A stretch of 64,000 nucleotides of DNA, from NCBI RefSeq assembly GCF_000269985.1, contig NC_016109.1, positions 4,650,001 through 4,714,000 of the forward strand. Reading direction: 5' to 3'. This DNA comes from Kitasatospora setae KM-6054. GTDB lineage: Bacteria > Actinomycetota > Actinomycetes > Streptomycetales > Streptomycetaceae. Each line of letters begins with the position of its first letter. Position 1 is the first letter of the stretch. This document shows, in pieces, positions 35,932 to 61,276 of this stretch. The position numbers and the translations under genes were made by a program. The notes beneath the pieces were generated by a model. That model saw nothing but the letters and a program-made list of their open reading frames with translations. It made no database searches and was not told the origin of the DNA.

Positions 35932-36027
35932 GGGGCGGATAGGCGGGGCGGTTCGGCGGGATAGGGGCGGTCGGGAGAGTGGTGCTCACAGCAGGCGGGA
36001 CCCCGCCGGAGCGTGAGGACTCGGAAG

Positions 36028-37056
36028 ATGACGGATTATCAGGACCGAACGGCGTCGAGGGGGACGGCGTCCGAACCCCTGGCGGCCGAACTGACCGGTG
36101 TGGTCAAGCGGTTCGAGAACGCCAAGGGCGAGGTGTTCACCGCGGTGGACGGGCTGGATCTGCGGATCCGGCGGGGCGAGGTGGTGGCGTTCCTCGGGCC
36201 GAACGGCGCGGGCAAGACCACCTCGATCGACATCCTGCTCGGGCTGACCCGCCCGGACGAGGGCGAGGTGCGGCTGTTCGGCACGGACCCGGAGCGGGCC
36301 GTGCGGGCCGGCCGGGTGGCGGCGGTGCTGCAGTCCGGCGGGCTGCTGCCGGACCTCACGGTCGAGGCGACGGTGCGGATGCTGGCCTCGCTGCACCCGG
36401 GCGCCGACCCGGAGCGCTGCATGCACCGGGCCGGGGTGACCGAGCTGCGCGACCGCCGGGTGGCGGCCTGCTCGGGCGGTGAGCAGCAGCGGCTGCGGTT
36501 CGCGCTGGCGCTGCTCCCGAAGCCGGACTTCCTGGTGCTGGACGAGCCGACGGCCGGCATGGACGTGGTGGCGCGGCGGGACTTCTGGGCGGCCGTCCGG
36601 GAGGACGCGGCGCGCGGCACGACCGTCATGTTCGCCACCCACTACATGGAGGAGGCGGACCAGTTCGCCGACCGGGTGGTGATGGTCGACAAGGGCGCCG
36701 TGGTGGCCGACGGTTCGGCCTCCTCGATCCGCGCGGCGATCAGCGGCCGGACCGTCTCGGCGCTGATCAGCCCGTACGAGGCCGAACTGGCCGCCCGGAC
36801 GCCCGGGGTGCGCGCCACCTCGGTGCGCGGCGAGCGCACCTACTTCAGCTGCGCCGACTCGGACGCGCTGCTGCGGGTGCTGGTCGGCGAGACCCGGGCC
36901 CGCGAGGTCGAGGTCGCGCCGCGCAGCCTGGAGGAGGCCTTCCTGGCCATCACCGAGAACGCCCGCGCCGACCGCGAGGCCCGCGCCGACCGCGAGGCCC
37001 GCGCCGTCCGTGAGGCCCGCCCCGCGACGCCCGCCCCCGTGAAGGAGAACGCCTGA
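36028..37056 (+). CDS. ABC transporter ATP-binding protein
   Basis: A 342-aa ATPase. Walker A is FLGPNGAGKTTS, the Q-loop VLQSGGLLPDL, the signature CSGGEQQRLRFALALL, Walker B FLVLDEPTAGMD, and the switch His is in FATHYMEEAD. This is the DrrA/antibiotic-exporter type, with a C-terminal extension of ~100 residues that ends in imperfect ADREARADREARAVREARP repeats. The ATG at 36028 is preferred for its GAGG site 8 nt upstream. It overlaps the permease start (TGATG). It probably exports the product of the adjacent cluster. Confidence 0.92.
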   Translation: MTDYQDRTASRGTASEPLAAELTGVVKRFENAKGEVFTAVDGLDLRIRRGEVVAFLGPNGAGKTTSIDILLGLTRPDEGEVRLFGTDPERAVRAGRVAAVLQSGGLLPDLTVEATVRMLASLHPGADPERCMHRAGVTELRDRRVAACSGGEQQRLRFALALLPKPDFLVLDEPTAGMDVVARRDFWAAVREDAARGTTVMFATHYMEEADQFADRVVMVDKGAVVADGSASSIRAAISGRTVSALISPYEAELAARTPGVRATSVRGERTYFSCADSDALLRVLVGETRAREVEVAPRSLEEAFLAITENARADREARADREARAVREARPATPAPVKENA

Positions 37057-37850
37057 TGGCCGCCGTCTCGGCGCCCGCCGCCGCCCGCACCTCGGTCTTC
37101 AACGGGGTGAACCCGGCCTTCGTCCGGTACGAGCTGCGCCGGCGCTTCAACCGCCAGACCACGATCTTCACGGTGCTGCTGCCCGCGGTGCTGTACCTGG
37201 CGCTGTTCCGCACCGCCCCGTCCGGCGGGGCGAGCCTGCCGCACGGCAACTTCGCGGCCTGGATGATGATCGGCCAGGCCGTGTACGGCGCGGCCACCGC
37301 CGCGGTCAGTTCGGCCGCCACCATCTCGGTGGAGAAGTCGGTCGGCTGGATGCGGACCATCGCGATGAGTCCGCTCACCCCGCCCGGCTACCTGCTGGTC
37401 AAGGTGCTGTGCTCGGTGCTGATGGCGGGCGTGCCGGTGCTGATCGTCGGCGGGCTGGGCGCGCTGACCGGCGCGCAGGCCGACGCGGACGTCTGGCTGG
37501 TGTCGCTGCTGGTGGCCTGGGTCGGTTCGGCGGTGTTCGCCGCGCTCGGCATCGGGATGGGCCTGGCGATGAAGCCCGACGTGGTGATGCACATGCCCGG
37601 CCTGGTGATGACCGCGCTGGCCTTCCTGGGCAACCTGTTCATCCCGCTGACCGGGACGATGCTGGAGGTCTCCCGCTACACCCCGATGTACGGGGTGGCG
37701 ACGCTGGCCCGGTACCCGCTGAACGACGGTTTCTCCTTCCACGGGGAGCACTCCGCCGTGGCCGGCGCGGTGTTCAACCTGCTGGCCTGGTTCGCCGGCT
37801 TCTCGTTCCTGGCGGTCCGCCGCTTCCGCAAGTCCACCGGCCGCCCGTAG
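37056..37850 (+). CDS. ABC-2-type transporter permease
   Basis: A 264-aa membrane protein with six hydrophobic segments: TIFTVLLPAVLYLALFRT, then FAAWMMIGQAVYGAATAAVS, then LVKVLCSVLMAGVPVLIVGG, WLVSLLVAWVGSAVFAALG, GLVMTALAFLGNLFIPLTG and a last one near the C terminus. The FxxLxxxxxxxPLxGT pattern is that of DrrB-like ABC-2 permeases. It is translationally coupled to the ATPase. Its last 21 bases are included in a 30-bp sequence repeated just downstream. Confidence 0.9.
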   Translation: MAAVSAPAAARTSVFNGVNPAFVRYELRRRFNRQTTIFTVLLPAVLYLALFRTAPSGGASLPHGNFAAWMMIGQAVYGAATAAVSSAATISVEKSVGWMRTIAMSPLTPPGYLLVKVLCSVLMAGVPVLIVGGLGALTGAQADADVWLVSLLVAWVGSAVFAALGIGMGLAMKPDVVMHMPGLVMTALAFLGNLFIPLTGTMLEVSRYTPMYGVATLARYPLNDGFSFHGEHSAVAGAVFNLLAWFAGFSFLAVRRFRKSTGRP

Positions 37851-37975: not shown

Positions 37976-38923
37976 ATGTTCGCATTCATCGCGCCGGGGC
38001 AGGGGTCCCAGACCCCGGGCCTGCTGGCCGCCTGGCTGCGCGACCCGGCCACCGCCGAGCGGGTGCAGGCCTGGTCCGAGGCCGCCGACACCGACCTGGT
38101 CCACCTCGGCACCAGGGCCCCGGCCGCCGAGATCGCCCGCACCGAGCACACCCAGCCGCTGCTGGTGGCCGCCGGACTGCTCGCCCACCACGCCCTGCAG
38201 GACGCCGTCCCGGCCGGCGGCGCGGTCGTCGCCGGCCACTCGGTCGGCGAGCTGACCGCCGCCGCGTACGCCGGGGTGCTGAGCCCCGCCGACGCCGTCC
38301 GCCTCGCCGCCGTCCGCGGCCGGGCGATGGCGGTGGCCTGCACCGAGGCGCCCACCTCGATGGCCGCCGTGGTCGGCGGCGAGAAGAGTGAAGTCCTGGA
38401 CCGAATAGGCGAGTTGGGGCTCTTCCCGGCGACCTTCAACGGCCCCGGCCAGATCGTCGCGGCCGGCCTGGCCGACGCCCTCGACCAGCTCGCGGCCGCC
38501 CCGCCGGCCGGCGCCACCGTCAAGCGGCTCGCCGTCGCCGGCGCCTTCCACACCCCGTACATGGAGTCGGCCCGGCAGACCTTCGAGGAGGCCGCCGCCC
38601 TGGTGCCGTTCGCCGCGCCGGAGCTGCCGCTGCTCTCCAACGCCGACGGCGCGTCCGTCACCGACCCGGCGGAGATCCGCCGGCGGCTGGTCGGGCAGCT
38701 GGTCGGGCCGGTCCGCTGGGACCACTGCCTGACCCAACTCGCCTCGCTGGCACCGGAGCTGACCGTCTCGCTGCCGCCCGCCAAGACCCTCGCGGGCATC
38801 CTCAAGCGCCAGCACCCCGAGCTGGACGTGCTGTCCGTCACCACCGCCCGGGACGTCGCCCGGGTCCGGGAGCGGCTGGCCGCCCCCGCCGGCCGAGGAG
38901 CGTCCGTCCATGCCGGTGTCTGA
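37976..38923 (+). CDS. Acyl-carrier-protein malonyltransferase-like acyltransferase
   Basis: A 315-aa FabD-type protein. The N terminus FAFIAPGQGSQTPGLL and the nucleophile GHSVGELTAAAYAGVL are canonical. VRGRAMAVAC supplies the carboxylate-binding Arg. GAFHTPYMESA supplies the catalytic His and the FH pair found in malonyl-specific enzymes. It would load malonyl units onto the cluster ACP (47114). An AAAGGGGG site precedes the ATG. The 3' end overlaps the adenylation gene by 14 bp. Confidence 0.9.
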   Translation: MFAFIAPGQGSQTPGLLAAWLRDPATAERVQAWSEAADTDLVHLGTRAPAAEIARTEHTQPLLVAAGLLAHHALQDAVPAGGAVVAGHSVGELTAAAYAGVLSPADAVRLAAVRGRAMAVACTEAPTSMAAVVGGEKSEVLDRIGELGLFPATFNGPGQIVAAGLADALDQLAAAPPAGATVKRLAVAGAFHTPYMESARQTFEEAAALVPFAAPELPLLSNADGASVTDPAEIRRRLVGQLVGPVRWDHCLTQLASLAPELTVSLPPAKTLAGILKRQHPELDVLSVTTARDVARVRERLAAPAGRGASVHAGV

Positions 38924-40430
38924 CCTGCTGGAGTACCCGCGCGCCGAGCGGGCCGCCCACACCGCCCTGATCGACGCCCAAGGAGCCCTGACCTACCGCC
39001 AGTTGGGCACCGCCGTGGACCGCGCCGTCGGCTGGCTGCGCGGCCAGGGCATCGCCCCCGGCGACCGGGTGGTGTACGCCGGCGGCAACGACCGGGCCTT
39101 CCTCGCCCTGTTCTGGGCCACCCTGCGGGCCGGCGCCGTCTTCGTCCCGGTCCACCCCGAGCTGACCGACCACCAGATCGACCACATCGTCGCCGACAGC
39201 GGCGCCGCGCTCGCCGTCTGCCGCCCGTCGGCCGGCCGCCGGGCCGCCCGCAGCACGGACGTCGAGCGGGCCTGGGAGCAGGTCCTCGCCAGTGCCGAGG
39301 ACCCGTACCGGGCCGAGGCCGACGAGGACGCGGTGGCGATGCTGATCTACACCTCCGGCACCACCGGCCGCCCCAAGGGCGTGGTCTGCCCGCACCGGCA
39401 GATGCTCGCCGCCGTCGACGCGGTGCACGCCTGCCTCGGCTACCGGGCCGACGACGTGGTGCTGTGCCGGCTGCCGCTCTCCTTCGACTACGGCCTCTAC
39501 CAGGCCCTGATGACCGCGCTGGTCGGCGGCACCCTGGTGCTGGCCCGGCGCAGCGACGACATGGGACTGCTGAAGCTGGTCGAGCGGACCGGCGTCACCG
39601 TCGTCCCGCTGGTGCCCTCGCTGGCGCAGATCCTCACCCTGCTGCAGGGCAAGGCGCACCGGCCGACGAAGGTCCGGCTGTTCACCAACACCGGCGCCCG
39701 CCCCGGCCGGGCCGTCACCGCCGAGCTGCTGGAGCTGTTCCCCGGCTCCGAGTTCGCCTCGATGTACGGCATGACCGAGTGCAAGCGGATCTCCATCCTC
39801 GACCCCGCCGAGTACGCGGCCCACCCCGACTCGGTCGGCCCGCCGATCCCCGGCGACCGGATCCGGATCCTGGCCCCCGACGGCACCGAGCTCGGCCCCC
39901 GGCTCACCGGCGAGATCGCCGTCCGCGGCGCCACCGTGATGGCCGGCTACTGGAACGTCCCGATGGCCGAGCAGAACCGGTTCGTCCCGCACCCCGACGG
40001 CGGCCTGGAACTGCGCACCGGCGACAACGGCTGGCTGGACGAGGAGGGCCGGCTCCACTTCGTCGGCCGCGACGACGACGTGGTCAAGCGCCGCGGCGTC
40101 CGGATCGCCCTCACCGAGGTCGAGGACGCCGCCGAGCGGATCCCCGGCGTCAGCGCCGCCGTCGCGCTCCGCCCCGAACCCGAGGGCGCCCCGCTGCTGC
40201 TGGCCGTGCACGGCAGCGTCCCGGCCGACCGGGTGCGCGCCCTGCTGGCCGCCGAACTCGACCACAGCCGGATGCCCGACCGGGTCGTCCCGATCGCCGC
40301 CGTGCCGCTCACCGCCAACGGCAAGCCCGACCGCGCCGCCGCCCGCCGCCTGGTCGAGGCCGCCGAAGCCGCCGAGGCCCCCGAAACCGCCACCACCCCG
40401 AGGAGCAGCCATGAACCAGTCGCAGTTTGA
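38910..40430 (+). CDS. Adenylate-forming enzyme (AMP-dependent ligase)
   Basis: A 506-aa ANL-superfamily enzyme. Core motifs are AMLIYTSGTTGRPKGVVCPH (A3), SMYGMTECKRISIL (A5), LELRTGDNGWLDEEG (A7), GRDDDVVKRRGVRI (A8) and LTANGKPDRAA (A10 Lys). It would activate an acid or amino acid and load the 80-aa carrier protein whose gene overlaps its 3' end. The pocket DYGLYQA at the A4 position, without the usual amino-acid-binding Asp being obvious, makes a carboxylic acid substrate at least as likely as an amino acid. Confidence 0.88.
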   Translation: MPVSDLLEYPRAERAAHTALIDAQGALTYRQLGTAVDRAVGWLRGQGIAPGDRVVYAGGNDRAFLALFWATLRAGAVFVPVHPELTDHQIDHIVADSGAALAVCRPSAGRRAARSTDVERAWEQVLASAEDPYRAEADEDAVAMLIYTSGTTGRPKGVVCPHRQMLAAVDAVHACLGYRADDVVLCRLPLSFDYGLYQALMTALVGGTLVLARRSDDMGLLKLVERTGVTVVPLVPSLAQILTLLQGKAHRPTKVRLFTNTGARPGRAVTAELLELFPGSEFASMYGMTECKRISILDPAEYAAHPDSVGPPIPGDRIRILAPDGTELGPRLTGEIAVRGATVMAGYWNVPMAEQNRFVPHPDGGLELRTGDNGWLDEEGRLHFVGRDDDVVKRRGVRIALTEVEDAAERIPGVSAAVALRPEPEGAPLLLAVHGSVPADRVRALLAAELDHSRMPDRVVPIAAVPLTANGKPDRAAARRLVEAAEAAEAPETATTPRSSHEPVAV

Positions 40431-40653
40431 CCAGCTCGTCGAGCGGACCTGCTCCGTGCGGGTCACCGACTCCGAGACCCCGCTGGTGGACCTGGGCGTC
40501 GACTCCCTGCACACCATCGCCCTGCTGATGGCGATCGAGGAGGAGTTCGGCTTCGAGGTCGACCCCGACGCCCTCGCCGACCCGGCGCTCGCCTCCCCGG
40601 CCGGCCTGCTGCGCTACGTGCGCGCCAGCACCGCCGCCCCGGCCGGGATCTGA
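40411..40653 (+). CDS. Stand-alone carrier protein (PCP/ACP)
   Basis: An 80-aa phosphopantetheine carrier with the attachment Ser in LVDLGVDSLHTIALLMAIEE. It lies between the adenylating enzyme (20-bp overlap) and the aminotransferase, so it probably carries the adenylated starter or amino acid. It is distinct from the second carrier at 47114, which belongs with the PKS enzymes. Confidence 0.9.
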   Translation: MNQSQFDQLVERTCSVRVTDSETPLVDLGVDSLHTIALLMAIEEEFGFEVDPDALADPALASPAGLLRYVRASTAAPAGI

Positions 40654-40666
40654 GGAGCCGGCAGCC

Positions 40667-41872
40667 ATGTGGACCGACACCAGACCCCCGGCCGAGATGC
40701 CGAAGCTGTTCGAACGCGGCGCGGACGTGATCTCGCTGGCCGGCGGCCTGCCCGACCTGGACGTCCTCCCGCTGGACGAGATATCCGCCCAGCTCGGCCG
40801 GCTCGTGCGGCTCGGCGGCAGGCTCGCCCTGCAGTACACCACCCCGCACGTCGCCAAGGCCCTCGTCCCCGCCGTCGCCGACCTGATGGCCCGCGAGGGC
40901 GGCCTGGCCGACGCCGACAACCTGATCCCGACCAGCGGCTCGCAGATGGGCCTGACCGCCGTCGCCCTCGCCCTCGGCAGCCCCGGCGACACCATCCTCA
41001 CCCAGACCCCCGCCTACCCCGGCGCCACCGCCGCCTTCCGCACCGCCGGCCTGCTGCCGTACGCCGCCGCGGAGGACGCCGAGGGCCTCGACCCGGTCGA
41101 ACTCAGAAGAACCGTCCAGGAGTTGCGCTCCGCCGGGCACACCGTCCGGCTGCTCTACACCAACCCGACCTTCCAGAACCCGACCGGCGCCACCCTCGCC
41201 GTCCCGCGCCGCGCCGCGATCCTCGCCGCCTGCCGCGAGCTCGACCTGCTGCTGGTCGAGGACAACCCGTACGGCCTGCTCGGCTTCGACGGCACCACCA
41301 CCACGCTGTTCCAGGCCCTCGACCCGGAGCGGGTGGTCTACCTCGGGACGTTCTCCAAGATCTTCGCGCCCGGCCTGCGCTCCGGCTGGATCGCCGCCCC
41401 CGCCCACCTGCGGCACGACCTGGCCCGGGTCGCCGAGATCATCTCGCTGTCGCCCTCCGCGCTCGCCCAGGGCGCGCTGGCCGCCTACCACTCCCGCTCC
41501 GGCTGGGACACCCTGATCGACCGCTACCGGGACAGCTACCGCGAGCGCTGCGCCCTGATGGCCGACGCGCTGGACGCCGAACTCGGCACCGGCACCCCCT
41601 GGCACTGGCAGCGCCCCGGCGGCGGCTTCTACCTCTGGCTGCGCCACCGCGACCGGGCCGACGCCGGACCGTACGCGCGGGCCGCCGCCGACCGCGGCGT
41701 CTCGGTCGTCCCCGGCGGGCACTTCTCGATCGACGGCGAGCACGCCGACGGCCTGCGGCTGTGCTTCAGCAACGTGCCCCGCAGGAAGATCGCCGAGGCG
41801 GTCGGCCGGCTCTCCGCCGCGCTCACCGAAACCCCTTCCGAGCAGCGCGAGTTCGCGGAGGTGGCGGGATGA
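40667..41872 (+). CDS. PLP-dependent aminotransferase (fold type I)
   Basis: A 401-aa class I/II aminotransferase of the MocR/2-aminoadipate-like group. It has VISLAGGLPDLDVLP at the N terminus, TSGSQMGLTAVALAL at the cofactor phosphate site, YTNPTFQNPTGATL, the Asp in LLLVEDNPYGLL, and the Schiff-base Lys in YLGTFSKIFAPGLRSGW. It may aminate the carrier-bound or free acyl product, or make the amino acid substrate. The ATGA overlap with the LanB-like gene couples the two. Confidence 0.9.
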   Translation: MWTDTRPPAEMPKLFERGADVISLAGGLPDLDVLPLDEISAQLGRLVRLGGRLALQYTTPHVAKALVPAVADLMAREGGLADADNLIPTSGSQMGLTAVALALGSPGDTILTQTPAYPGATAAFRTAGLLPYAAAEDAEGLDPVELRRTVQELRSAGHTVRLLYTNPTFQNPTGATLAVPRRAAILAACRELDLLLVEDNPYGLLGFDGTTTTLFQALDPERVVYLGTFSKIFAPGLRSGWIAAPAHLRHDLARVAEIISLSPSALAQGALAAYHSRSGWDTLIDRYRDSYRERCALMADALDAELGTGTPWHWQRPGGGFYLWLRHRDRADAGPYARAAADRGVSVVPGGHFSIDGEHADGLRLCFSNVPRRKIAEAVGRLSAALTETPSEQREFAEVAG

Positions 41873-44232
41873 CCGCGCCCGCCGTCGAGACCCTCGCGGA
41901 AGACACCGGGCCCGCCGCCGTCGACTGGGCCGACCTCGGCCCGCGCCACCGGCTGGCCGGCACCGACTGGCGGGTCTGGGGCGTCGGACTGCTCCGCAAC
42001 GCCGGGTTCCCGGTCTCCGGCCTCGACCTGGTCGGCGGCACCCGCGCCCCGGCCGCCGCCGCCGCGCTCACCGCCGGCCACGGCACCGCCGACGCGTTCC
42101 ACGCCGCCTACGCCGCCGACGCCGACGCCGAGGGCACCGCCCTCGCCCGCCTCGCCACCGACCCCAGGCTCCGCCTCGCCATCGCCTGGCAGAACCGCAC
42201 CGTCTACCGGATCCTCGACTCGCTGGCCGCCCCCGGCGGCAAGGAGACCAAGCGCCGCCAGCGCGAACGCACCCTCGCCATGTACTGGCTGCGCTACTGC
42301 GCCAAGGCCGACACCATCGGCTTCTTCGGCCCCGCCGCCTGGATCGGCGTCGGCCGCACCGACCGCGCCGTCGACGTCGAGCCAGGCCCCGGCCTGGTCG
42401 CCGCCACCCACACCGCCCTGGAGCGCTGGACGGTCGCCGCCGTCGCCGACTGGATGGCCGAACAGCCCGGCGCCCGCTGGTGGTTCCCGCCGGTGCTGCG
42501 CCCCGACGTCCAGCTGGACGGCGACCGGCTGGTGCTGCCCACCCGCAAGGTGCTCCGGCTGCGCCCCGAGGAGGCCCAGCTGCTGCGGCTCGCCGACGGC
42601 GACCGCCACGCCGAGCGGATCACCGACCTGCTGATCGCCGAGCACGGCTGGGACGCCGCCACCGCCCGCGACAGGGTGGAGAAGGCCCTCGGCCGGCTGC
42701 TGCGCCAGCGCGTCCTCGGCTGGGACGCCAACATCCCGGTCGACGTCCGCGCCGAGCGGGTGCTGCGCCGCCGGGTCGACGCCATCGGCGACCCCGCGCT
42801 GTTCGTCCGCTACGACGCGGTGCTGACCGAACTCGCCCGCCACAAGCGGGAGATCGAGCGGGCCGGGACCGCCGAGCAGCTGGTCGAGGCACTGGACGCG
42901 CTGGACGCGTACTTCGTCGAGACCACCGGCGAGGCCGCCTCCCGCGAGGAGGGCAAGGCGTACGCCGGGCGCACCCTGAGCTACCAGGACGCGCTGCGGG
43001 ACTGCCGGATGGAGCTCGGCCGGGACTTCCTGGACGCGCTGGCCCGCCCGCTCGCCCTGGTCGCCGACGCCGCCGACTGGTTCGGCAACCGGCTGGCCGA
43101 ACTCGTCGAGGCCGAGGTCGCCGGATTCGTCCGGGCCGCCGCCGCCAAGCTGCCGGCCGGCACGCCCGTCACCCTCGCCGACGTCTGGCCGCAGACCCTG
43201 GCGCTGTTCTGGGGCGAGCACGACCACCCGGTGCGGCGCGCGGTCGGCGAACTCGCCCTGAAGTGGCGCGAGGTGATCGGCGAGCTGCCCGACGGCGCCA
43301 CCCGGGTCGAGCTGCCCGCCGACCGGATCGCCGCCCGGGTCCGGGAGGTCTTCGCCACCGGCGAGGTGCGCTCCCCGCACCTCGCCGTGCACAGCCCCGA
43401 CCTCCAGGTGGTGGCCCGCTCCGCGGCGGCGGTCAACGCGGGCGACTACACGGTGGTGCTCGGCGAGATGCACGCCTGCCTGGCCACCCTCGACCTGCCG
43501 TTCCTGGACTGGACGGCCGGCCCCGGCGGCACCGTCCGCGACCGGGTCAACCGGGTGATCGGCGCCGAACGCCTGGTGCCGCTGCTCCCGGTCGGCTGGA
43601 AGCGCAACAGCGGCCGGATGGTGCCCGCCCCGATCGGCGCCGGCGACCGGCTGATCGGCTTCACCCGCGCCCCGTTCGACCAGCGCGACCGGATCGAGCC
43701 CGCCGTCTCCATCACGCTCGCCGAACAGGACGGGCGGGTCACCGCGACCACCGCCGACGGCCGTGCCCGCTCGCTCTCCGAACTGCTCGCGGTGCTGATC
43801 TCGATCATCGCCTGCGACGCCTTCAAGATCGGCCTGGACCGGCCGCACGCCCCCCGGGTCACCCTGGACGGCCTGGTGCTGTTCCGGGAGACCTGGCGGC
43901 TGCCGCCGACCGGCGTCGAGCTCCCCGCCAAGGCCGACCGGCACCGCGACTACCTGGCGGTGCGCCGCTGGGTGGACGCCAACGGCCTGCCGGACCGGGC
44001 GTTCGTCAAGTTCCCCGAGGAGACCAAACCCTCCCTGGTCGACTTCACCAGCCCGGTGCTGGTGCTGTCCTTCGCCAACCTCGTCCGCCGCGCGGTGCAG
44101 TCCGACCCGGACGCCGTGGTGACCGTCAGCGAACCGCTGCCGGCCCCCGAGGAGTCCTGGCTGCCCGACGCCGACGGCGAGCGCTACGTCAGCGAGCTTC
44201 GGCTCCAGATCAGCCGAGAGGTGCCGCAATGA
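41869..44232 (+). CDS. Stand-alone LanB-like lantibiotic dehydratase-family protein
   Basis: A 787-aa protein that resembles the N-terminal (glutamylation) domain of LanB dehydratases. It has LAMYWLRYCAKADTIGFFGP, IAWQNRTVYRILDSL, AELVEAEVAGFVR and late VSITLAEQDGRV, VTLDGLVLFRETWR and PDRAFVKFPEETKP segments. Full LanB enzymes are ~1000 aa and act with LanC on a precursor peptide; neither partner is present. Known short relatives use aminoacyl-tRNA to form amide bonds (PEARL-type enzymes) or to activate hydroxyls. Here it lies between an aminotransferase and diaminopropionate genes (4-bp overlaps on both sides), suggesting aminoacyl transfer in small-molecule assembly. Function is inferred. 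Confidence 0.78.
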   Translation: MTAPAVETLAEDTGPAAVDWADLGPRHRLAGTDWRVWGVGLLRNAGFPVSGLDLVGGTRAPAAAAALTAGHGTADAFHAAYAADADAEGTALARLATDPRLRLAIAWQNRTVYRILDSLAAPGGKETKRRQRERTLAMYWLRYCAKADTIGFFGPAAWIGVGRTDRAVDVEPGPGLVAATHTALERWTVAAVADWMAEQPGARWWFPPVLRPDVQLDGDRLVLPTRKVLRLRPEEAQLLRLADGDRHAERITDLLIAEHGWDAATARDRVEKALGRLLRQRVLGWDANIPVDVRAERVLRRRVDAIGDPALFVRYDAVLTELARHKREIERAGTAEQLVEALDALDAYFVETTGEAASREEGKAYAGRTLSYQDALRDCRMELGRDFLDALARPLALVADAADWFGNRLAELVEAEVAGFVRAAAAKLPAGTPVTLADVWPQTLALFWGEHDHPVRRAVGELALKWREVIGELPDGATRVELPADRIAARVREVFATGEVRSPHLAVHSPDLQVVARSAAAVNAGDYTVVLGEMHACLATLDLPFLDWTAGPGGTVRDRVNRVIGAERLVPLLPVGWKRNSGRMVPAPIGAGDRLIGFTRAPFDQRDRIEPAVSITLAEQDGRVTATTADGRARSLSELLAVLISIIACDAFKIGLDRPHAPRVTLDGLVLFRETWRLPPTGVELPAKADRHRDYLAVRRWVDANGLPDRAFVKFPEETKPSLVDFTSPVLVLSFANLVRRAVQSDPDAVVTVSEPLPAPEESWLPDADGERYVSELRLQISREVPQ

Positions 44233-45284
44233 CCGTGCTCGTCCCCGACGGCGCCGCGGTACGGGTACGCCCGCACCGGCCGTCGGACCCCGACATCGTC
44301 GCCACGATCGGCGGAACCCCGCTGGTCGCGCTCGACCGCCTGTTCCCGCCCGCCCGCTTCCAGGTGTACGCCAAGTGCGAGCGGTTCAACCCCGGCGGCT
44401 CCATCAAGGACCGGGCCGCCAAGTCGATGGTCGAGCAGGCCATCGCCAGCGGCCGGATCGTCCCCGGCGTCTCCACCGTGGTGGAGTCCTCCTCCGGGAA
44501 CCTGGGCATCGCGCTCGCCCAGCTGTGCAACTTCCACCGGCTCGGCCTGGTCATCGTGGTCGACCCGCGCACCACCCCGCAGAACCTCGCCATCATGCGG
44601 GCCTACGGCGCCAGGGTGGAGGTGGTCGAGCACCGCGACCCGGCCACCGGCGAGTACCTGCCGGCCCGGATCGCCCGGGTCCGGCACCTGCTGGAGACCG
44701 TCCCCGACGCCTGGTGGCCCAACCAGTACGCCAACGAGGACAACGCCCGCGCCCACCACGGCACCATGCGGGAGATCGTCGAGGCGCTGCCCGCCGCCCC
44801 CGACTACCTGTTCCTGGCGGCCGGCACCACCGGCACCCTGCGCGGCTGCGCCGAGTACGTCCAGGCCCAGGGGCTGTCCACCCGGGTGGTCGCGGTGGAC
44901 GCCGTCGGCAGCGTGATCTTCGGCCCGCCGGAGCCCTGGGAGGCCGCCCACAAGCGCACCATCCCCGGCCACGGCGCCGCCGTCGTCCCCGCGCTGCTGC
45001 GGCCCGGACTGGCCGACCGGGTGGTCAAGGTGACCGACTCCGAGTGCATCCGGGGCTGCCGCAGCCTGCTGGCCGAGGAGTCGATCCTGGCCGGCGGCTC
45101 CTCCGGCGCGGTGATCGCCGCGCTCCGGCAGTCCGCCGACTGGATCGAGCCCGGCGCCGTCTGCGTCGCGGTGCTCCCGGACGGCGGCGACCGCTACCTC
45201 GACACCATCTACGACGACCAGTGGGTCGAGTCCTACCTCCGGCAGTACCTGCCGCCCACCGAGCAAGAGAGAGACACGCCATGA
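44229..45284 (+). CDS. sbnA: 2,3-Diaminopropionate biosynthesis protein SbnA-like
   Basis: A 351-aa fold type II PLP enzyme of the cysteine synthase family. The cofactor Lys is in NPGGSIKDRAAKSM, the substrate loop is VESSSGNLGIALAQ, the phosphate loop is AAGTTGTLRG, and GGSSGAV lies near the C terminus. SbnA condenses O-phosphoserine with glutamate to give N-(1-amino-1-carboxyethyl)-glutamate. The immediate partner gene is SbnB-like (4-bp overlap), which makes this assignment much more likely than cysteine synthesis. Confidence 0.9.
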   Translation: MTVLVPDGAAVRVRPHRPSDPDIVATIGGTPLVALDRLFPPARFQVYAKCERFNPGGSIKDRAAKSMVEQAIASGRIVPGVSTVVESSSGNLGIALAQLCNFHRLGLVIVVDPRTTPQNLAIMRAYGARVEVVEHRDPATGEYLPARIARVRHLLETVPDAWWPNQYANEDNARAHHGTMREIVEALPAAPDYLFLAAGTTGTLRGCAEYVQAQGLSTRVVAVDAVGSVIFGPPEPWEAAHKRTIPGHGAAVVPALLRPGLADRVVKVTDSECIRGCRSLLAEESILAGGSSGAVIAALRQSADWIEPGAVCVAVLPDGGDRYLDTIYDDQWVESYLRQYLPPTEQERDTP

Positions 45285-46312
45285 GGATCCTCGGGCGGGA
45301 GGACGTCAGGGTCGCCCTGGCCGACCTCGACTCCGCCGTCATCGGCCTGGTCCGCGACGCCTACGTGCTGCACGGCCAGGGCAAGTCCGACCTCCCCTTC
45401 TCGACCTTCCTGCGCCCGCTGCACCGCTCCGACTCGCGGATCATCGCGCTGCCCGCCTACCTCGGCGGACCGGCCCCGGTGATGGGCCTGAAGTGGATCT
45501 CGTCCTTCCCGGAGAACGTCAAGCGCGGGATGCAGCGCGCCAGTTCGCTGTGCATCCTGAACGACCTGGAGTCCGGCTACCCGCTGGCCCTGATGGAGGG
45601 CAGCCAGATCTCCGCGGTCCGCACCGCGGCCGGCGCGGCGCTCGCCTCCGGCCTGCTGAACACCGGCCGCGAGGTCCGCACCGCCGGCCTGGTCGGCTGC
45701 GGCACCATCAACCACCGGGTGACGCACTTCCTCACCCAGGTGCACGGCGAGCTGGAGACCGTCCTGCTGCAGGACGCCTACCCGGAGCGGGCCGAGGTGT
45801 TCGCCGCCGAACTCGCCGCCGAGTACCCGGACATCGCCTTCCGGGCCGCCCCGCTGAGCCAGGTGCTGACCGCCGACACGGTCTCGATCGCCACCACCGA
45901 CTCCACGTACTGGCTCGACCTCGCCGCCCACCCGCAGCGCCCGCACGGCCAGGTCGTGCTGCACCTGTCGCTGCGCGACCTGTCGGTCGGGTCGGTGCTC
46001 GACGCGGTCAACGTGGTCGACGACGCCGACCACGCGATCCGCGAGCAGACCTCGCTGCACAAGGCCGAACTGCGCTCCGGCCACCGCCGCTTCGTCACCG
46101 CCGAGATCGGCGCGCTGCTCGACGGCACCGCCGAACTGCCGGACGGCGCCCGCACCGTGGTGTTCTCCCCGTTCGGCCTCGGGGTGCTCGACCTGGCCGT
46201 CGCCGAGGCGGTGCTGAACGTCGCCGAGAAGGCCGGGCTCGGCACCGAGGTCGACGGCTTCGACCCCGGCACCCACAAGGTCACCTCGCACTTCACCGGG
46301 AGCCCCGCATGA
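45281..46312 (+). CDS. sbnB: 2,3-Diaminopropionate biosynthesis protein SbnB-like
   Basis: A 343-aa ornithine cyclodeaminase/mu-crystallin-family dehydrogenase. Substrate-binding MGLKWISSFPENVKRGMQRA and LMEGSQISAVRTAAGAALAS precede the NAD-binding TAGLVGCGTINHRVTHFL and VSIATTDSTYW. SbnB oxidatively cleaves the SbnA product into L-2,3-diaminopropionate and 2-oxoglutarate. Together the two genes supply the diamine to this cluster. The start overlaps the SbnA stop and the end overlaps the ketoreductase start. Confidence 0.9.
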   Translation: MRILGREDVRVALADLDSAVIGLVRDAYVLHGQGKSDLPFSTFLRPLHRSDSRIIALPAYLGGPAPVMGLKWISSFPENVKRGMQRASSLCILNDLESGYPLALMEGSQISAVRTAAGAALASGLLNTGREVRTAGLVGCGTINHRVTHFLTQVHGELETVLLQDAYPERAEVFAAELAAEYPDIAFRAAPLSQVLTADTVSIATTDSTYWLDLAAHPQRPHGQVVLHLSLRDLSVGSVLDAVNVVDDADHAIREQTSLHKAELRSGHRRFVTAEIGALLDGTAELPDGARTVVFSPFGLGVLDLAVAEAVLNVAEKAGLGTEVDGFDPGTHKVTSHFTGSPA

Positions 46313-47061
46313 CCGGACTGTTCCAGGAGGGCACCCGGGCCGTCGTCACCGGCGCCTCGCGCGGCATCGGCGCCGCGATCGCCCTCCAGCTCGCCGAGCA
46401 CGGCTGCGACGTCGCGCTCAACTACCGTTCCAGCGCCGGGAAGGCCGAGCAGCTGGCGGAGAAGATCGAGGGCCTGGGCCGGCGCGCCCTGCTGGTGAAG
46501 GCCGACGTCTCGGACGAGGCGCAGGTCACCGCGATGTACAAGGAGATCCGCACCGCCTGGGGCGGGGTCGACGTCGCGGTCCTCAACTCGGGGATCACCG
46601 CCGACGGGCACTTCGCGGCGATGAGCGCCGCCAAGTGGCAGGAGGTGATCTCCACCAACCTGACCGGCGCGTTCCTGACGGCCCGCGAGGCGACCAAGCA
46701 GATGTACGCCTCCGGCGGCTCGATCGTCTTCATCGCCTCCACCTCCGGGATCGCCGGCCGGGTCGGCCAGGCCAACTACGCCGCCTCCAAGGGCGGGGTG
46801 ATCGCGATGGCCAAGACCCTCGCCTACGAGGGCGCGCCGAAGGGCATCCGGGTCAACGTGGTCGCGCCCGGCTTCATCGACACCGACATGGTGAAGAAGG
46901 TGCCGCGCGCCCAGCTCAAGGAGGCCGCGGCGGCGATCCCGCTGGGCCGGATGGGCACCCCGGAGGAGGTCGCCCAGGCGGCGGTCTTCCTGGCCAGCCC
47001 GGCGGCCTCGTACATCACCGCCAAGGTGCTCACCGTCGACGGCGGAATGCTCTACAGCTGA
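46309..47061 (+). CDS. 3-Oxoacyl-ACP reductase (FabG-like ketoreductase)
   Basis: A 250-aa SDR. It has the cofactor motif VVTGASRGIGAAIA, Asn in VAVLNSG, the catalytic Ser-Tyr-Lys in FIASTSGIAGRV and NYAASKGGV, and the C-terminal APGFIDTDMV and VDGGMLYS of FabG. It would reduce the beta-keto group after each chain extension by the KS-CLF. The adjacent ACP and dehydratase complete a reducing type II PKS set. Confidence 0.93.
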   Translation: MTGLFQEGTRAVVTGASRGIGAAIALQLAEHGCDVALNYRSSAGKAEQLAEKIEGLGRRALLVKADVSDEAQVTAMYKEIRTAWGGVDVAVLNSGITADGHFAAMSAAKWQEVISTNLTGAFLTAREATKQMYASGGSIVFIASTSGIAGRVGQANYAASKGGVIAMAKTLAYEGAPKGIRVNVVAPGFIDTDMVKKVPRAQLKEAAAAIPLGRMGTPEEVAQAAVFLASPAASYITAKVLTVDGGMLYS

Positions 47062-47113: not shown

Positions 47114-47404
47114 ATGTCCACCGCCACCTTCGAGGACGTCCGCGCCCAGGCCGAGCAGCGCCTGGAGCGGAACCTGAGGATCAAGTCGATGATCATCGAC
47201 CGCCTGGGCCTGGACGCCGAGGCCGAGGTCGTCTCCGACAACCAGCCGCTGTTCGGCCGCGGCCTGGAGATGGACTCGCTGGACACCCTGGAGATCGTTG
47301 TCATGATCAACAACGAGTACGACGTGCTGATCAGCGACGACGACTTCGAGGCGTTCGGCTCCATCAACGCCCTGGTCGACTTCATCGAAGCCCGCGAGGT
47401 CTGA
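47114..47404 (+). CDS. Acyl carrier protein
   Basis: A 96-aa carrier with the phosphopantetheine Ser in FGRGLEMDSLDTLEIVVMIN. The N-terminal 25 residues are a longer helix than in housekeeping ACP. It sits between the ketoreductase and dehydratase genes, so it is the chain-carrying ACP of the type II PKS. A GAGAGGAAA site precedes the ATG. Confidence 0.92.
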   Translation: MSTATFEDVRAQAEQRLERNLRIKSMIIDRLGLDAEAEVVSDNQPLFGRGLEMDSLDTLEIVVMINNEYDVLISDDDFEAFGSINALVDFIEAREV

Positions 47405-47406
47405 CC

Positions 47407-47946
47407 GTGACCCCCGCCACCGCCCTCGCGCCCGCCAAGGCCGCCGCGCCGGGCCGGGAGAAGCCGAAGACCTTCGCCTACTCCTCCGACGACATCAAGC
47501 GGATGCTGCCGCACCGCTGGCCGATGCTGATGATCGACCGCGCCTACGACGTGGTCCCCGGCGTCTCCGGACGCGGCGTCAAGAGCGTCTCGGTGAACGA
47601 GCCGTTCTTCGCCGGCCACTACCCCGACCACTCGATCATGCCCGGCGTGATGATCGTCGAGGCGATGGCCCAGCTGGTCGCCGTGGTCTACGTCGCCGAG
47701 CTGCTGGAGGCCCCGGCCCCGGCCGCCGGAAGCGAGCCCGCCGACCCCTCGGCCAGCGTCGGCTACCTCGGCTCGATCAGCTCGATGAAGTTCTCCCGGC
47801 TGGTCGTCCCCGGCGACCAGCTCACCCTGGAGGCCAAGCTCGGCCAGAAGCTCGGCGGCCTGCGCTCGGTCTCGGTCCGGGCCTCGGTCGGCACCGAACT
47901 CGCCGCCGCCGGCTCGCTGATCGTCACCACCGAGCGCAAGGGCTGA
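47407..47946 (+). CDS. 3-Hydroxyacyl-ACP dehydratase (FabZ-like)
   Basis: A 179-aa hotdog-fold enzyme. The catalytic His is in MLPHRWPMLMIDRA and the Glu in FAGHYPDHSIMPGVMIVEAM, the FabZ signature. An insert with PAPAAGSEPADPSAS after the central helix and an Ala/Lys-rich N terminus make it longer than FabZ (~150 aa). It would dehydrate the 3-hydroxyacyl chain to the enoyl state. With no enoylreductase in the cluster, double bonds should remain. Confidence 0.92.
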   Translation: MTPATALAPAKAAAPGREKPKTFAYSSDDIKRMLPHRWPMLMIDRAYDVVPGVSGRGVKSVSVNEPFFAGHYPDHSIMPGVMIVEAMAQLVAVVYVAELLEAPAPAAGSEPADPSASVGYLGSISSMKFSRLVVPGDQLTLEAKLGQKLGGLRSVSVRASVGTELAAAGSLIVTTERKG

Positions 47947-47998: not shown

Positions 47999-50017
47999 AT
48001 GTCCATCACGATCCGCCCCTACCAGGAGGGCGACGCGCACGACATCGCCGAGCTCTACAACCGGCACCGCGACAACCCCAACCCGGTGGCGGGCGGGATC
48101 ACCGGCGCCGAACTGGAACGCGAACTCGCCGAGCGCGACACCGCGACGTTCCTGGTCGCCGTCGAGGACGGCCGGGTGGTGGGCACGTTCGGGCTGTTCC
48201 ACAGCACCGGACGGCGCTCCGCCCGGGCCGGCGAGCTGATCGCCGACATGTTCTTCGTCGCCCCGGCCTACCGCAACGGCGTCATCACCGGCCGGCTGTT
48301 CACCGAGGCCGTCGAGTGGATGATGCGCTGCGGCTGCCTCGTCCTGCGGCTGACCGTCAACCCGGCCAACACCGTCGCCTTCAAGCTCTACCGGCGGGTC
48401 GGCTGCGTCTCGGTCGGCGAGACCGTCCCCGGCGAGGACGGCAACGTCGAACTGCACAACTACATCCCGCTGATCCTGCGCGGCGTCTTCCACGACCTCG
48501 GCCCCGAGGCCGTGGCGGAACTCGGCAAGCTCAGCAGCTTCGGCAGCGTCACCGACGGCCGGGACGGCGAACTCCGCTCCGACGTACGGCTGGTGGACGG
48601 CGTCCGGACGGTCGGCTACGCTCTCGCGCTCGGCGGCTTCAAGCTCACCGCCGGCATCGACGTCGACCGCGGCCTGCTGCTCGACGCCCGGCTCACCGAC
48701 CCGGACGGCGCCACCCGGCAGCTGCGGATCGCCGAAGCCCCCTACGAGGTCAAGGAGTCGACGGGCGGGCAGCCACACCGCTTCGGCGGCGACGGCCTCA
48801 CCGCCGAACTCGACCCCGCCGAGGGCACCCTCACCGTGCACGCCGAGGGCCACCACGGGCCGGTGTTCGTCTCCACCTGGCCCAGCGCCGAGGCCGACCG
48901 CTCGGCCGGCTGGCGCGAGGGCCAGGCCCGGACGCTGGAGGTCCGGGCCGTCGAGCACGGCGTCGAGGTCTCCGAGCGCACCGGCGGCAACCTGGTCACC
49001 GGCACCCTCACGCTCCACCGGGGCGTGCTGGAACAGCAGTTCAGCTACACCACCCGGCCCGGCCGGATCTTCCAGACCGTCGGACTGCGCCAGGGCGAGT
49101 TCGCCCTGACCGGCCCCGACGGCGCCGAACGGCACCCGATCGGCACCGGCATCGGCGTCCGCGACACCTCCGAGGTGGTCGCCGCCGCCCGGACCGCCCC
49201 GGCGGGCAGCGCGCTCGCCTGGACCGACGGCACCACCCGGGTCGCGCTCCCGGCCGGCCACCCGGTCCGGCTGATCACCGCCACCCTGGTCGAACGGCAC
49301 CTCGTCCCCGACGCCGACGGCACCGCCCGGCTGCGCACCGAGTTCGCCACCGGCCCGGACCGGGCCGCCACCCGCACCGCCTCGGTCGGACAACCGCTCG
49401 ACGGACAACGGAAGTTGACCGTCAAGGCGGCGGCCGGCGGAATCACCGGCTGGACCGAGGACGGCACCAAGGTGCTCCGCAGCCCCGCCCCCCGCACCCG
49501 CGCCTTCGGCTGCAACCCGCGCTGGCGGGCCGGGGCCTGGGTCACCCGCGAACACCACCGGCACAGCCTCGCCACCGGCCTCGGCTGGGGCGTCGCCACC
49601 CCGGAGTGGGAGCAGAAGCACCCGCTCGGCCTGGCCGCCCCGCAGGAGGGCGTCAGCTGGGAGGTCACCGCCCCCGAACGGACCGCCGAACCGGTCCGGC
49701 TCGACGTCCACGCCCCCGGCGCGGACGAGGAGACCGTCCTCTGGCTCACCCCCGACACCCCGGCCGACACCGCCGTGGTGATCGACTCGGCCGGCACCCG
49801 GCACGCCCTGGACAGCGGCGCCTTCCGGCAGGTCTGGGCCGCCGCCGCCGCGGTCCGGCTGACCGGCGGCCACTGGCTGCACCTCACCCCCGCCGGCCCG
49901 GCCGGCACCCAGGAGATCGTCCTGCGCACCACCTCCTCCGGACTGCTGATCGGCTGCGCCTCGGCCGGAGCCGACGCCGCCTGGCAGCTGTCCGTCCACC
50001 CCGCACCCGCGATCTGA
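47999..50017 (+). CDS. GNAT acyltransferase fused to large unknown domain
   Basis: A 672-aa protein. Residues 1-~165 form a GNAT fold: ITIRPYQEGDAHDIAELYNR, MFFVAPAYRNGVITGRLFTE (acyl-CoA-binding loop) and LRLTVNPANTVAFKLYRRVG. The following ~500 residues are strand-rich with no signature I recognise (for example QPHRFGGDGLTAELDPAEG and HRHSLATGLGWGVATPEWEQ). They have a sugar-epimerase- or beta-sandwich-like flavour, which is only an impression. An AAGGAGG site precedes the ATG. It may acylate an amine of the product, with the C-terminal part as a substrate-binding module. Confidence 0.72.
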   Translation: MSITIRPYQEGDAHDIAELYNRHRDNPNPVAGGITGAELERELAERDTATFLVAVEDGRVVGTFGLFHSTGRRSARAGELIADMFFVAPAYRNGVITGRLFTEAVEWMMRCGCLVLRLTVNPANTVAFKLYRRVGCVSVGETVPGEDGNVELHNYIPLILRGVFHDLGPEAVAELGKLSSFGSVTDGRDGELRSDVRLVDGVRTVGYALALGGFKLTAGIDVDRGLLLDARLTDPDGATRQLRIAEAPYEVKESTGGQPHRFGGDGLTAELDPAEGTLTVHAEGHHGPVFVSTWPSAEADRSAGWREGQARTLEVRAVEHGVEVSERTGGNLVTGTLTLHRGVLEQQFSYTTRPGRIFQTVGLRQGEFALTGPDGAERHPIGTGIGVRDTSEVVAAARTAPAGSALAWTDGTTRVALPAGHPVRLITATLVERHLVPDADGTARLRTEFATGPDRAATRTASVGQPLDGQRKLTVKAAAGGITGWTEDGTKVLRSPAPRTRAFGCNPRWRAGAWVTREHHRHSLATGLGWGVATPEWEQKHPLGLAAPQEGVSWEVTAPERTAEPVRLDVHAPGADEETVLWLTPDTPADTAVVIDSAGTRHALDSGAFRQVWAAAAAVRLTGGHWLHLTPAGPAGTQEIVLRTTSSGLLIGCASAGADAAWQLSVHPAPAI

Positions 50018-50053: not shown

Positions 50054-51082
50054 ATGACCACCGCCCCCGCCCGCACCGCCCAGGACGACTACACCACCGT
50101 CCGCACCGCCATCGGCGCCTACCGGATCACCGCCCCGCTGGTCCGGATCTCCGGCGGCGACCGCTACGAGTTCCTCGACCTGTTCCTGGCCAAGTCCAGC
50201 GAGTACGTCGAGCCGGACAGCGTCCGCGAGGCCCTGGCGCTGAACGCCGACGGCACCCCGTTCGCGATCCTGCTGCACTTCGAGATCGGCGACGACTCCT
50301 GGCTGCTGCCCCGCACCCCGGTCACCGCCGAGGAGCTGACCGCCTACCTGGCCGCCGTCGACGCCCCGGCCGACGCCACCGTCGAGGTCGCGCCGGAGGG
50401 CTGGGGCGCCAGCGCCTTCGAGGGCCCGCAGGCGTGGTCCGCCGCGGCGAAGTTCGTCGAGTTCGACATCTCCGGCCTGACCCTGCACGGCGTCACCGAG
50501 TCCGCCGTCCCCGGCGAGCCGGCCGCGCTCGCCCACCTCGCCCGGGTCGGCACCACCGGCGAGTACGGCTACCTGCTGCTCTCCAACGCCCCCGAGGCCG
50601 CGCACGCCGCGGTCGTCGAGGCGGTCGCCGCCGAGGACGGCGCCGAGGTCGGCCCGCAGGGCCTGGCCCGGGTCCAGGCCGAGGCCGGGATGGCCGTCTA
50701 CGCGGCCGGCTTCACCGGGCTGCCGGTGCACGAGGCCGACCTCGCCTGGATGGTCGACTGGAACCGGATCGGCGAGTTCCAGGGCTCCGACGAGCTGGTC
50801 AAGCCCACCGCCGAGACCGCCAAGACCACCGCCCTGGCCGCCCCGGCCGGCGCCGAGCTCGCCCCCGGCACCGCCGTCACCGCCGGCGGGCAGCGGGTCG
50901 GCACCGTCGTCTGGCAGGCCCCGTCCGCCAACGCCGACGAGGAACTCGTCGTCGCCCTGCTGGACGCCCCGTTCTGGGTCCCCGGCCTGGAGCTCGCCGC
51001 CGGCGACGCCGCCCAGACCCCGCTGCGCACCGTCACCCAGCCCCGCGTCATCGCCCGCTCCCTCACCACCCGGATCCACTGA
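50054..51082 (+). CDS. GcvT/YgfZ-like (aminomethyltransferase-family) protein
   Basis: A 342-aa protein with the T-protein fold. It has PLVRISGGDRYEFLDLFLAK at the N terminus, FVEFDISGLTLHG, TGEYGYLLLSN (the conserved G-E-x-G-(F/Y) motif), GPQGLARVQAEAGM (R-x-E-x-G) and a C-terminal barrel with GGQRVGTVVWQAPS. GcvT uses tetrahydrofolate as one-carbon carrier. In this cluster it may move a methylene or methyl group, or bind another pterin or substrate. The 3' end overlaps the KS-CLF start by one base. Confidence 0.78.
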   Translation: MTTAPARTAQDDYTTVRTAIGAYRITAPLVRISGGDRYEFLDLFLAKSSEYVEPDSVREALALNADGTPFAILLHFEIGDDSWLLPRTPVTAEELTAYLAAVDAPADATVEVAPEGWGASAFEGPQAWSAAAKFVEFDISGLTLHGVTESAVPGEPAALAHLARVGTTGEYGYLLLSNAPEAAHAAVVEAVAAEDGAEVGPQGLARVQAEAGMAVYAAGFTGLPVHEADLAWMVDWNRIGEFQGSDELVKPTAETAKTTALAAPAGAELAPGTAVTAGGQRVGTVVWQAPSANADEELVVALLDAPFWVPGLELAAGDAAQTPLRTVTQPRVIARSLTTRIH

Positions 51083-54635: not shown

Positions 54636-54781
54636 ACGCCGCCGGCGCCCTGCCCGCCACCCGTACCCGCCCGGCCGCCACCCGTACCCGCCCGGCTGCC
54701 GCGGGCGCCCGCTCCGGCCGTCGACCCGGCTGCGCGCAGCGGTCGTTCGCCGCCGCCCCGTCCCTGGAGTCCGCCGCATGA
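54632..54781 (+). CDS. Small coupled ORF (49 aa), possible peptide or repeat artefact
   Basis: A GTG-start frame overlaps the phosphopantetheinyl transferase stop (GTGA) and ends overlapping the next start (ATGA). The product contains TRTRPAATRTRPAA and one Cys, and ends PSLESAA, the same last residues as the upstream protein. The DNA holds a 21-bp tandem repeat and a copy of the upstream 3' end, so it may merely result from duplication. With a LanB-like enzyme in the cluster it is the only visible peptide-sized candidate substrate; this is speculative. Confidence 0.35.
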   Translation: MNAAGALPATRTRPAATRTRPAAAGARSGRRPGCAQRSFAAAPSLESAA

Positions 54782-60886: not shown

Positions 60887-61111
60887 TCAGCCGCCCCAGG
60901 TGACGTCGCCCTGCGGGGAGACGCCCGGGTGCGGGGTGGCGGTGGCGGTCGGGGCCGGGGTCGGGGTCGGGGTCGGAACGGTGTCGATCTGCACGCTCCC
61001 GGCGCCGTCCGCGAGATTTCCGGAGAATTCCACGGCGCCCGCGGAAACGGTCAGTGCGGCTGCGGCAATCACCAGGGAAATCGCGAACTTGGAGACGCGG
61101 GTGACCAGCAC
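60887..61111 (-). CDS. Small secreted peptide upstream of the SARP gene (74 aa)
   Basis: A 74-aa product from a GTG with a GAGGAGAA site. The N-terminal signal is VSKFAISLVIAAAALTVSAG; the mature part is AVEFSGNLADGAGSVQIDTV followed by a Thr/Pro tail (PTPTPTPAPTATATPHP) ending GDVTWGG. The gene is 102 bp upstream of the SARP gene in the same direction, so they may be co-transcribed. It could be an exported signal or a surface peptide. I do not recognise the family. Confidence 0.65.
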   Translation of the reverse strand: MLVTRVSKFAISLVIAAAALTVSAGAVEFSGNLADGAGSVQIDTVPTPTPTPAPTATATPHPGVSPQGDVTWGG

Positions 61112-61276
61112 GGAATTCTCCTCGAAAGTAGTGGGCTGTTCCCGGAGTATTCTCCGGTTTCTCCCGGCCGGGCCGCTCGCCCCCGCCGACTCCTCTACTG
61201 TGCGCCCTCCGCGCCCCGGAGGGAACAGCCGACGGCTGGACGGAACATGCACTGACCTAAGCCGTCCACGCCGACC

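Follow-up and report, generated by a model that had tools for sequence, protein, structure and literature searches.

Members of the PEARL (peptide aminoacyl-tRNA ligase) group such as TglB, AmmB2 and BhaB7 (BhaBCTrp) act on scaffold peptides. Their key residues, in BhaB7 numbering Arg34, Tyr205, Arg208, Asp558, Glu575, His577, Arg715, Glu813 and Arg815, contact ATP/Mg, the carboxylate of the substrate or the CCA end of the tRNA, and mutant data for several of them are available in TglB or BhaB7 (PMC12945691, PMC11962472). A relative from the threopeptin pathway of Stackebrandtia nassauensis, SnaE, was reported in 2024 to add Thr in vivo to the unactivated carboxylate of a nonribosomal peptide synthetase (NRPS)/polyketide synthase (PKS) product, which may be free or carrier-bound (PMC11212132). 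PEARL-like ligases of NRPS/PKS clusters are thus a known class, founded experimentally by SnaE; about two thousand such clusters encode a "lantibiotic dehydratase", mostly a stand-alone one (PMC11212132). Here, we describe a lantibiotic dehydratase (LanB)-like protein of 787 residues from Kitasatospora setae KM-6054, encoded by an open reading frame (ORF) at 41869-44232 (+) in a window of 64,000 nucleotides (4.650-4.714 Mb of the 8.78-Mb genome), within a type II polyketide cluster. Judging by its residues, its modelled fold and its surroundings, this protein would be an amide-forming, PEARL-like ligase akin to SnaE that acts on a small biosynthetic intermediate, a reading to which we assign a probability of roughly 0.6.

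The third-position GC and frame use of the gene are consistent with coding. In Pfam, its product matches PF04738 (Lant_dehydr_N; E 8.6e-24, 84 bits against a cut-off of 28) over residues 98-536 and in a second stretch further along, and has no match to the elimination domain PF14028. Across the whole genome, PF14028 is found only at ~0.549 and ~6.59 Mb, at no point closer than 1.8 Mb to the window; the nearest LanC-like match in a whole-genome search is at 5.05 Mb, ~0.33 Mb away, and comparison across related loci revealed no conserved precursor-like small ORF inside the operon. Among the features of class I LanBs, the glutamylation domain is present and the elimination domain, a nearby LanC and a precursor peptide are absent; by domain criteria, dehydratase identity is excluded. 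The earlier note on this DNA had described the enzyme as stand-alone, lacking a precursor peptide and LanC, and as translationally coupled to aminotransferase and SbnA genes, and both descriptions hold: PF04738 is the sole domain found, and ATGA overlaps join the aminotransferase stop to the LanB start (41869-41872) and the LanB stop to the SbnA start (44229-44232). SbnA, like SbnB, exceeds its NCBIfam equivalog cut-off. A lanthipeptide or pearlin reading of the locus was rejected because PF14028, LanC and a precursor are all out of reach. Two genuine lanthipeptide-type loci in the same genome, at 0.546-0.551 and 6.590-6.596 Mb, combine a LanB, an elimination domain and LanC, and served as controls.

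The signature of the PEARL active site is retained. The tRNA CCA-binding residues of BhaB7, Arg34, Tyr205 and Arg208, have counterparts in R43 and in Y139 and R142 of a YxxR motif, and those of the ATP-grasp-like site, Asp558, Glu575, His577, Arg715 and Glu813xArg815, in D511, E533xH535, R673 and E776xR778, the correspondence to BhaB7, TglB and SnaE being drawn from motif context and published numbering, not from direct alignment. In 24 aligned sequences of at least 31% identity, R43 is nearly invariant and Y139, R142, D511, E533, H535, R673, E776 and R778 are invariant; in all, conservation of these residues covers 22 orthologues and some 20 distant relatives. Active-site residues are also invariant among orthologues down to 65% identity, which speaks against a catalytically dead relic that merely scaffolds an enzyme complex, an explanation we find scarcely credible. 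In the two canonical LanBs that this genome also encodes, R43, Y139 and R142 are retained; D511, E533, H535 and R673 are replaced and the E-x-R pair is absent, the E and R aligned in the last two columns of their rows falling in a gapped region where the true local motif is AEIVVPL or HEIVIPL. The comparison shows that the LanB-like protein bears the signature of a PEARL-like ligase, from which its reaction is predicted: the ATP-grasp-like site would use ATP to phosphorylate a free carboxylate of a small intermediate, the resulting acyl phosphate would be attacked by the amino group of an aminoacyl-tRNA, and water would then release the tRNA. Such ATP- and aminoacyl-tRNA-dependent amide ligase chemistry is, on the residues and the model taken together, well supported and likely.

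The AlphaFold2 model of the protein (mean pLDDT 85.9) finds its best fold match in the glutamylation domain of TbtB (Z 22.1 over 649 residues), followed by MadB, NisB, MibB and GodF, with matches to TbtB, NisB and MibB in the range of Z 17-22. The model alone gave a full-length match; phmmer and profile searches of the PDB with the sequence gave none. Its C-terminal half has weak ATP-grasp matches to RimK (Z 4.2), a glutathionylspermidine-synthase-like fold (Z 4.2) and DcsG (Z 3.9), which, as far as a model can tell, agree with the ATP-grasp-like site described for PEARLs. The fold and the tRNA-side residues common with TbtB, NisB and MibB would also fit a LanB-type glutamylation, in which a tRNA-borne glutamyl or aminoacyl group is transferred, with no ATP activation, to a hydroxyl or amine of a carrier-bound intermediate for protection or as a handle for elimination; the beta-hydroxyacyl groups yielded by the ketoreductase (KR) of the cluster could serve as substrates. 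We consider this improbable: unlike in TbtB, NisB and MibB, the neighbourhood lacks an elimination domain and a lanthipeptide or thiopeptide context, and the ATP-site residues, absent from canonical LanBs, are invariant here.

Orthologues of the LanB-like protein (65-92% identity) occur in 22 species-level loci of Kitasatospora and Streptomyces; in an even sample of 394 Streptomycetaceae genomes, 16 encode an orthologue scoring above 1400 bits. The earlier note had advised a survey for homologues beside sbnA/sbnB and ketosynthase-chain length factor (KS-CLF) genes, and the 22 loci provide just that, all with identical gene order, as far as the contigs extend, from the ABC transporter to KS-CLF and beyond. 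Because gene order is conserved across loci, the LanB gene is an integral member of the cluster, not a stray gene. The limits of the cluster, set from thirteen longer downstream and eight upstream stretches, are an ABC transporter on one side and an MFS exporter with regulators on the other, and enclose at least 15 syntenic genes. In the locus of Kitasatospora cheerisanensis (LanB region from 10001), the frame ends after codon 457 and the protein match continues, probably owing to an assembly frameshift.

More distant LanB relatives (31-39% identity) are found in Streptomycetaceae and other actinomycete families, where they mostly adjoin adenylation (A), condensation (C), ketosynthase (KS) or acyltransferase (AT) domains; the surroundings of L067, L068, L129 and L133 are harder to read. 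L127 is a relative encoded beside an NRPS whose ureido-type C domain has the motif EHHMIHDG; a motif of this type is the reported signature of SnaA, the NRPS partner of SnaE (PMC11212132). In a phylogenetic tree built without SnaE itself, LanBs of type II PKS clusters form a single group (SH-aLRT 100) nested among NRPS/PKS-associated LanBs, beside those of type I PKS/NRPS clusters (SH-aLRT 99) and apart from canonical LanBs. The protein thus resembles SnaE in being a stand-alone PF04738 protein without PF14028, encoded in a non-ribosomal, NRPS/PKS-type cluster with no precursor peptide; it also shares a clade with NRPS/PKS-associated LanBs. The settings differ: SnaE adds Thr alongside a modular NRPS and one module of a type I PKS, once the chain has been reversed through a ureido link; here the partners are a type II PKS, diaminopropionate (Dap) genes, a VinN-type enzyme as a separate protein and a carrier protein that stands free, and an NRPS module is absent.

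A separate cluster type, widespread in Streptomyces (L064, L130, L131, L132, L135), has two PEARL-like LanBs ~5 kb apart, with a stand-alone adenylation enzyme, a PALP or related enzyme, a carrier protein and an NRPS between or beside them.

The best clue to the acceptor is the VinN-type adenylation enzyme (38910-40430), which the earlier note did not mention. At the positions of the VinN pocket D230/F231/S299/K330/R331 it reads D/Y/T/K/R, with two conservative changes; among orthologues, D, Y, T and R are present in 30 of 30 and K in 28 of 30. In comparable A domains of neighbouring NRPS clusters, the last two pocket positions pair T with M, I, V, T or L, K and R being absent. With the VinN/VinL starter loading of vicenistatin, and with AfcQ and BolO, the cluster shares the Asp230/Lys330/Arg331 code of its adenylation enzyme and the presence of a carrier protein that stands free. 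In VinN and AfcQ, the pocket Arg grips the alpha-carboxylate, and it is therefore the beta-carboxylate that is loaded onto the free carrier protein (PMC7756342, PMC12186527, PMC11253843). In VinN-type pathways, e.g., that of vicenistatin, a pyridoxal phosphate (PLP)-dependent decarboxylase then removes the alpha-carboxylate. Unlike in the vicenistatin, AfcQ and BolO routes, the annotated genes here include no decarboxylase-type PLP gene of the VinO/AfcP/BolN kind; the cluster has a LanB-like ligase and an aminotransferase instead.

A sister cluster without LanB, present in three genomes of the same genus (G033, G222, G168; L149-L154), offers a natural control. It contains SbnA, AT, KR, an acyl carrier protein (ACP), a dehydratase (DH), the GNAT fusion, GCV_T, KS-CLF, an ABC transporter and a condensation-fold protein, and in two of these genomes SbnB and a phosphopantetheinyl transferase were also seen; the block of VinN-type enzyme, peptidyl carrier protein (PCP), aminotransferase and LanB is absent, and an AMP-binding protein there is only ~30% similar. 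The sister clusters also encode two SbnA-like PALP proteins and an additional AMP-binding protein of 600 residues, and their KS-CLF is 49-51% identical to that of the window. Because all four are missing together, the VinN-type enzyme, PCP, aminotransferase and LanB would constitute a cassette; in gene content, they behave as one added onto a polyketide-Dap core. From this behavior we infer that the substrate of LanB is what the VinN-type enzyme and the PCP together produce.

These comparisons also bear on the alternative that a PEARL-like ligase uses another carboxylate, that of Dap, free or acylated, or of a released polyketide-amino acid, giving a product that ends in acyl-Dap-X. The translational coupling of LanB to sbnA, the genuineness of SbnA and SbnB and the ability of SnaE to use, perhaps, either a free or a carrier-bound substrate are in its favor. 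However, the sister clusters retain SbnA (SbnB in two of three) and the core without LanB, and Dap chemistry is thus independent of LanB; moreover, LanB is absent jointly with the VinN-type enzyme, the PCP and the aminotransferase. Dap or a released intermediate are possible acceptors, at less than even odds.

Under the preferred SnaE-type reading, the VinN-type enzyme would load an Asp-like acid via its beta-carboxylate on the PCP, with the alpha-carboxylate left free, and LanB would cap the alpha-carboxylate of the isoaspartyl-S-PCP with a proteinogenic amino acid, in place of decarboxylation. Meanwhile, the beta-thioester would be extended and reduced by the type II KS-CLF, KR and DH, and a further enzyme, perhaps the condensation-fold protein, would attach the Dap made by SbnA/SbnB. 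As the acceptor, we tentatively put forward, at somewhat less than even odds, the free alpha-carboxylate of an isoaspartyl carrier-protein thioester; growth in two directions from one carrier-bound aspartate, with a tRNA-dependent amide on the alpha-carboxylate and a type II PKS at the other end, is less likely than not. Several points weigh against the SnaE-type reading: the indirect residue correspondence, the weakness of the ATP-grasp fold matches (Z about 4), the match of residues 201-287 to RiPP recognition element (RRE; RiPP, ribosomally synthesized and post-translationally modified peptide) and PqqD folds, a part that usually binds peptide, the guessed sequence in which VinN-type loading, LanB and the aminotransferase would act, and the lack of a role for the aminotransferase, GNAT and GCV_T proteins in this scheme.

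The RRE-like domain kept in LanB would suit a RiPP or pearlin pathway, in which the substrate is a ribosomal scaffold peptide. One candidate is a small ORF by the SARP gene (~60890-61120, -; within ORF 60887-61252, between the SARP gene and 61277-61579) that encodes ~57-75 residues, VLVTRVSK...GDVTWGG; it is conserved in the Kitasatospora loci and in three of the five Streptomyces loci checked. Yet it lies outside the operon and travels with the SARP gene; its hydrophobic N-terminus resembles a signal peptide, the LALA-type ending of the PEARL substrates described so far is missing, and it was found in neither L082 nor L083, both of which keep LanB. A pearlin pathway is therefore very improbable, and the ORF was rejected as a hidden precursor on the grounds of its signal-like N-terminus and the failure to find it in L082 and L083; unlike for the scaffold-peptide PEARLs, no scaffold peptide gene is present here, and a small-molecule acceptor, carrier-bound or free, is favored. 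The small protein is conserved in ten related loci, in both orientations, with the end DVTWG(G/S/P), and is perhaps a secreted signal tied to the regulator.

The proposal of the earlier note that the enzyme uses aminoacyl-tRNA to form an amide on a non-ribosomal substrate is well supported by the conserved tRNA- and ATP-site residues and the lack of a peptide substrate. The two findings the note had named as decisive against it, a nearby precursor peptide and loss of the tRNA-dependent site, did not appear: the operon holds no conserved candidate peptide, and the tRNA-site residues are conserved. The structural prediction it had called for gave a TbtB-like fold. Its view that such activity is known only on scaffold peptides is outdated, since SnaE acts on an NRPS/PKS product (PMC11212132). 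Because SnaE has been characterized, the further claim that the activity is not known in this context fails for NRPS/PKS clusters in general and survives, at best, for a type II PKS context. A published cluster joining LanB, SbnAB and a type II PKS was not found in the open-access literature (subscription content and MIBiG lay outside the search), and the parts available of a review on N-N bonds and of the cispentacin paper contain no description of this cluster. The new element is the setting, which appears undescribed: a PEARL-like ligase combined with SbnA/SbnB, a VinN-type enzyme and its carrier, and a type II PKS of the highly reducing kind whose KS and CLF are fused.

In the literature covered, SnaE alone among the misannotated "lantibiotic dehydratases" of NRPS/PKS clusters has an assigned role. 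The Kitasatospora cluster would be a compact second case, with discrete proteins and an adenylation code that hints at the acceptor. If the reading is true, tRNA-dependent amide formation extends to type II polyketide pathways, and the case would aid mining for products misfiled as lanthipeptides by annotation pipelines.

Table 1. Genes of the K. setae cluster and its borders (window coordinates).
Feature	Position	Strand	Basis
ABC transporter pair (ATPase 36013-37056, permease 37056-37850), upstream cluster limit	36013..37850	+	PF00005/PF01061; synteny
FabD-like malonyltransferase	37976..38923	+	PF00698; PDB FabD E 3e-73
VinN-type adenylation enzyme, predicted for beta-carboxylate of Asp or close analogue	38910..40430	+	PDB 3wvn (VinN) E 2e-98; pocket code
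Stand-alone carrier protein (PCP/ACP), 80 aa, GVDSL	40411..40653	+	PF00550 E 6e-10; DSL Ser conserved, 30 rows
Class I/II aminotransferase (aminoadipate/MppQ-like)	40667..41872	+	PF00155; nearest structures include alpha-aminoadipate aminotransferases, MppQ
LanB-like glutamylation-domain protein, 787 aa, predicted PEARL/SnaE-type ligase	41869..44232	+	PF04738; PEARL residues; fold match TbtB, MibB, NisB
SbnA, diaminopropionate biosynthesis	44229..45284	+	TIGR03945 410 bits, cut-off 350; PDB SbnA E 9e-80
SbnB, diaminopropionate biosynthesis	45281..46312	+	TIGR03944 337 bits, cut-off 327
Ketoreductase, FabG-like SDR	46309..47061	+	PF13561
Type II PKS acyl carrier protein	47114..47404	+	PF00550; 81-98% identity across loci
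FabZ-like dehydratase	47407..47946	+	PF07977; NF000582 above cut-off
GNAT domain and ~500-aa C-terminal region, fold not assigned	47999..50017	+	PF00583; in all loci
GCV_T-like (folate-binding aminomethyltransferase family)	50054..51082	+	PF01571
Fused KS-CLF, 774 aa	51082..53406	+	PF00109/PF02801, two stretches
Probable Sfp-type phosphopantetheinyl transferase (C-terminal half)	53406..54635	+	GVDLQ, ECEALIKA read by eye; no Pfam match
Condensation-domain-fold protein, possible release or condensation enzyme	54778..55977	+	HIVTDG (HxxxDG); Foldseek
MFS exporter, downstream operon limit	56030..57739	+	PF07690; synteny
LuxR-type regulator	57765..58760	-	PF00196
SARP regulator	58934..60784	-	PF03704

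The highly reducing type II PKS set, comprising KS-CLF, KR, DH and a discrete ACP, is complete (Table 1). Discrete KS-CLF, KR, DH, ACP and AT components are also found in ishigamide-type highly reducing type II PKSs and in the type II PKS-like system of cispentacin; unlike in these, KS and CLF are fused here, and GCV_T-like and GNAT proteins are added. The first half of the fusion has NACAAS; the second reads ANGGTSS at the matching motif, without the catalytic Cys. The closest matching polyketide subcluster seen is on plasmids of Priestia megaterium: in pBMG6 (L137, 10370-16433), AT, KR, ACP, FabZ, GCV_T and a fused KS-CLF, 35-37% identical to that of the window, are accompanied by accessory genes, with the amino-acid genes absent. 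The GCV_T-like protein seems to belong to the polyketide machinery. The ~500-residue C-terminal part of the GNAT protein has no Pfam match. The AT was considered as a VinK-type dipeptidyl transferase and rejected because FabD matches far better. The condensation-fold protein, in which HIVTDG is invariant, matches AzeD, the SrfA-C C domain and PapA5 in Foldseek (E 1e-11 to 6e-14); with a pLDDT of only 59, its model was used for fold class alone, and on this basis the protein may serve to couple Dap, or some other amine, with the acyl-ACP.

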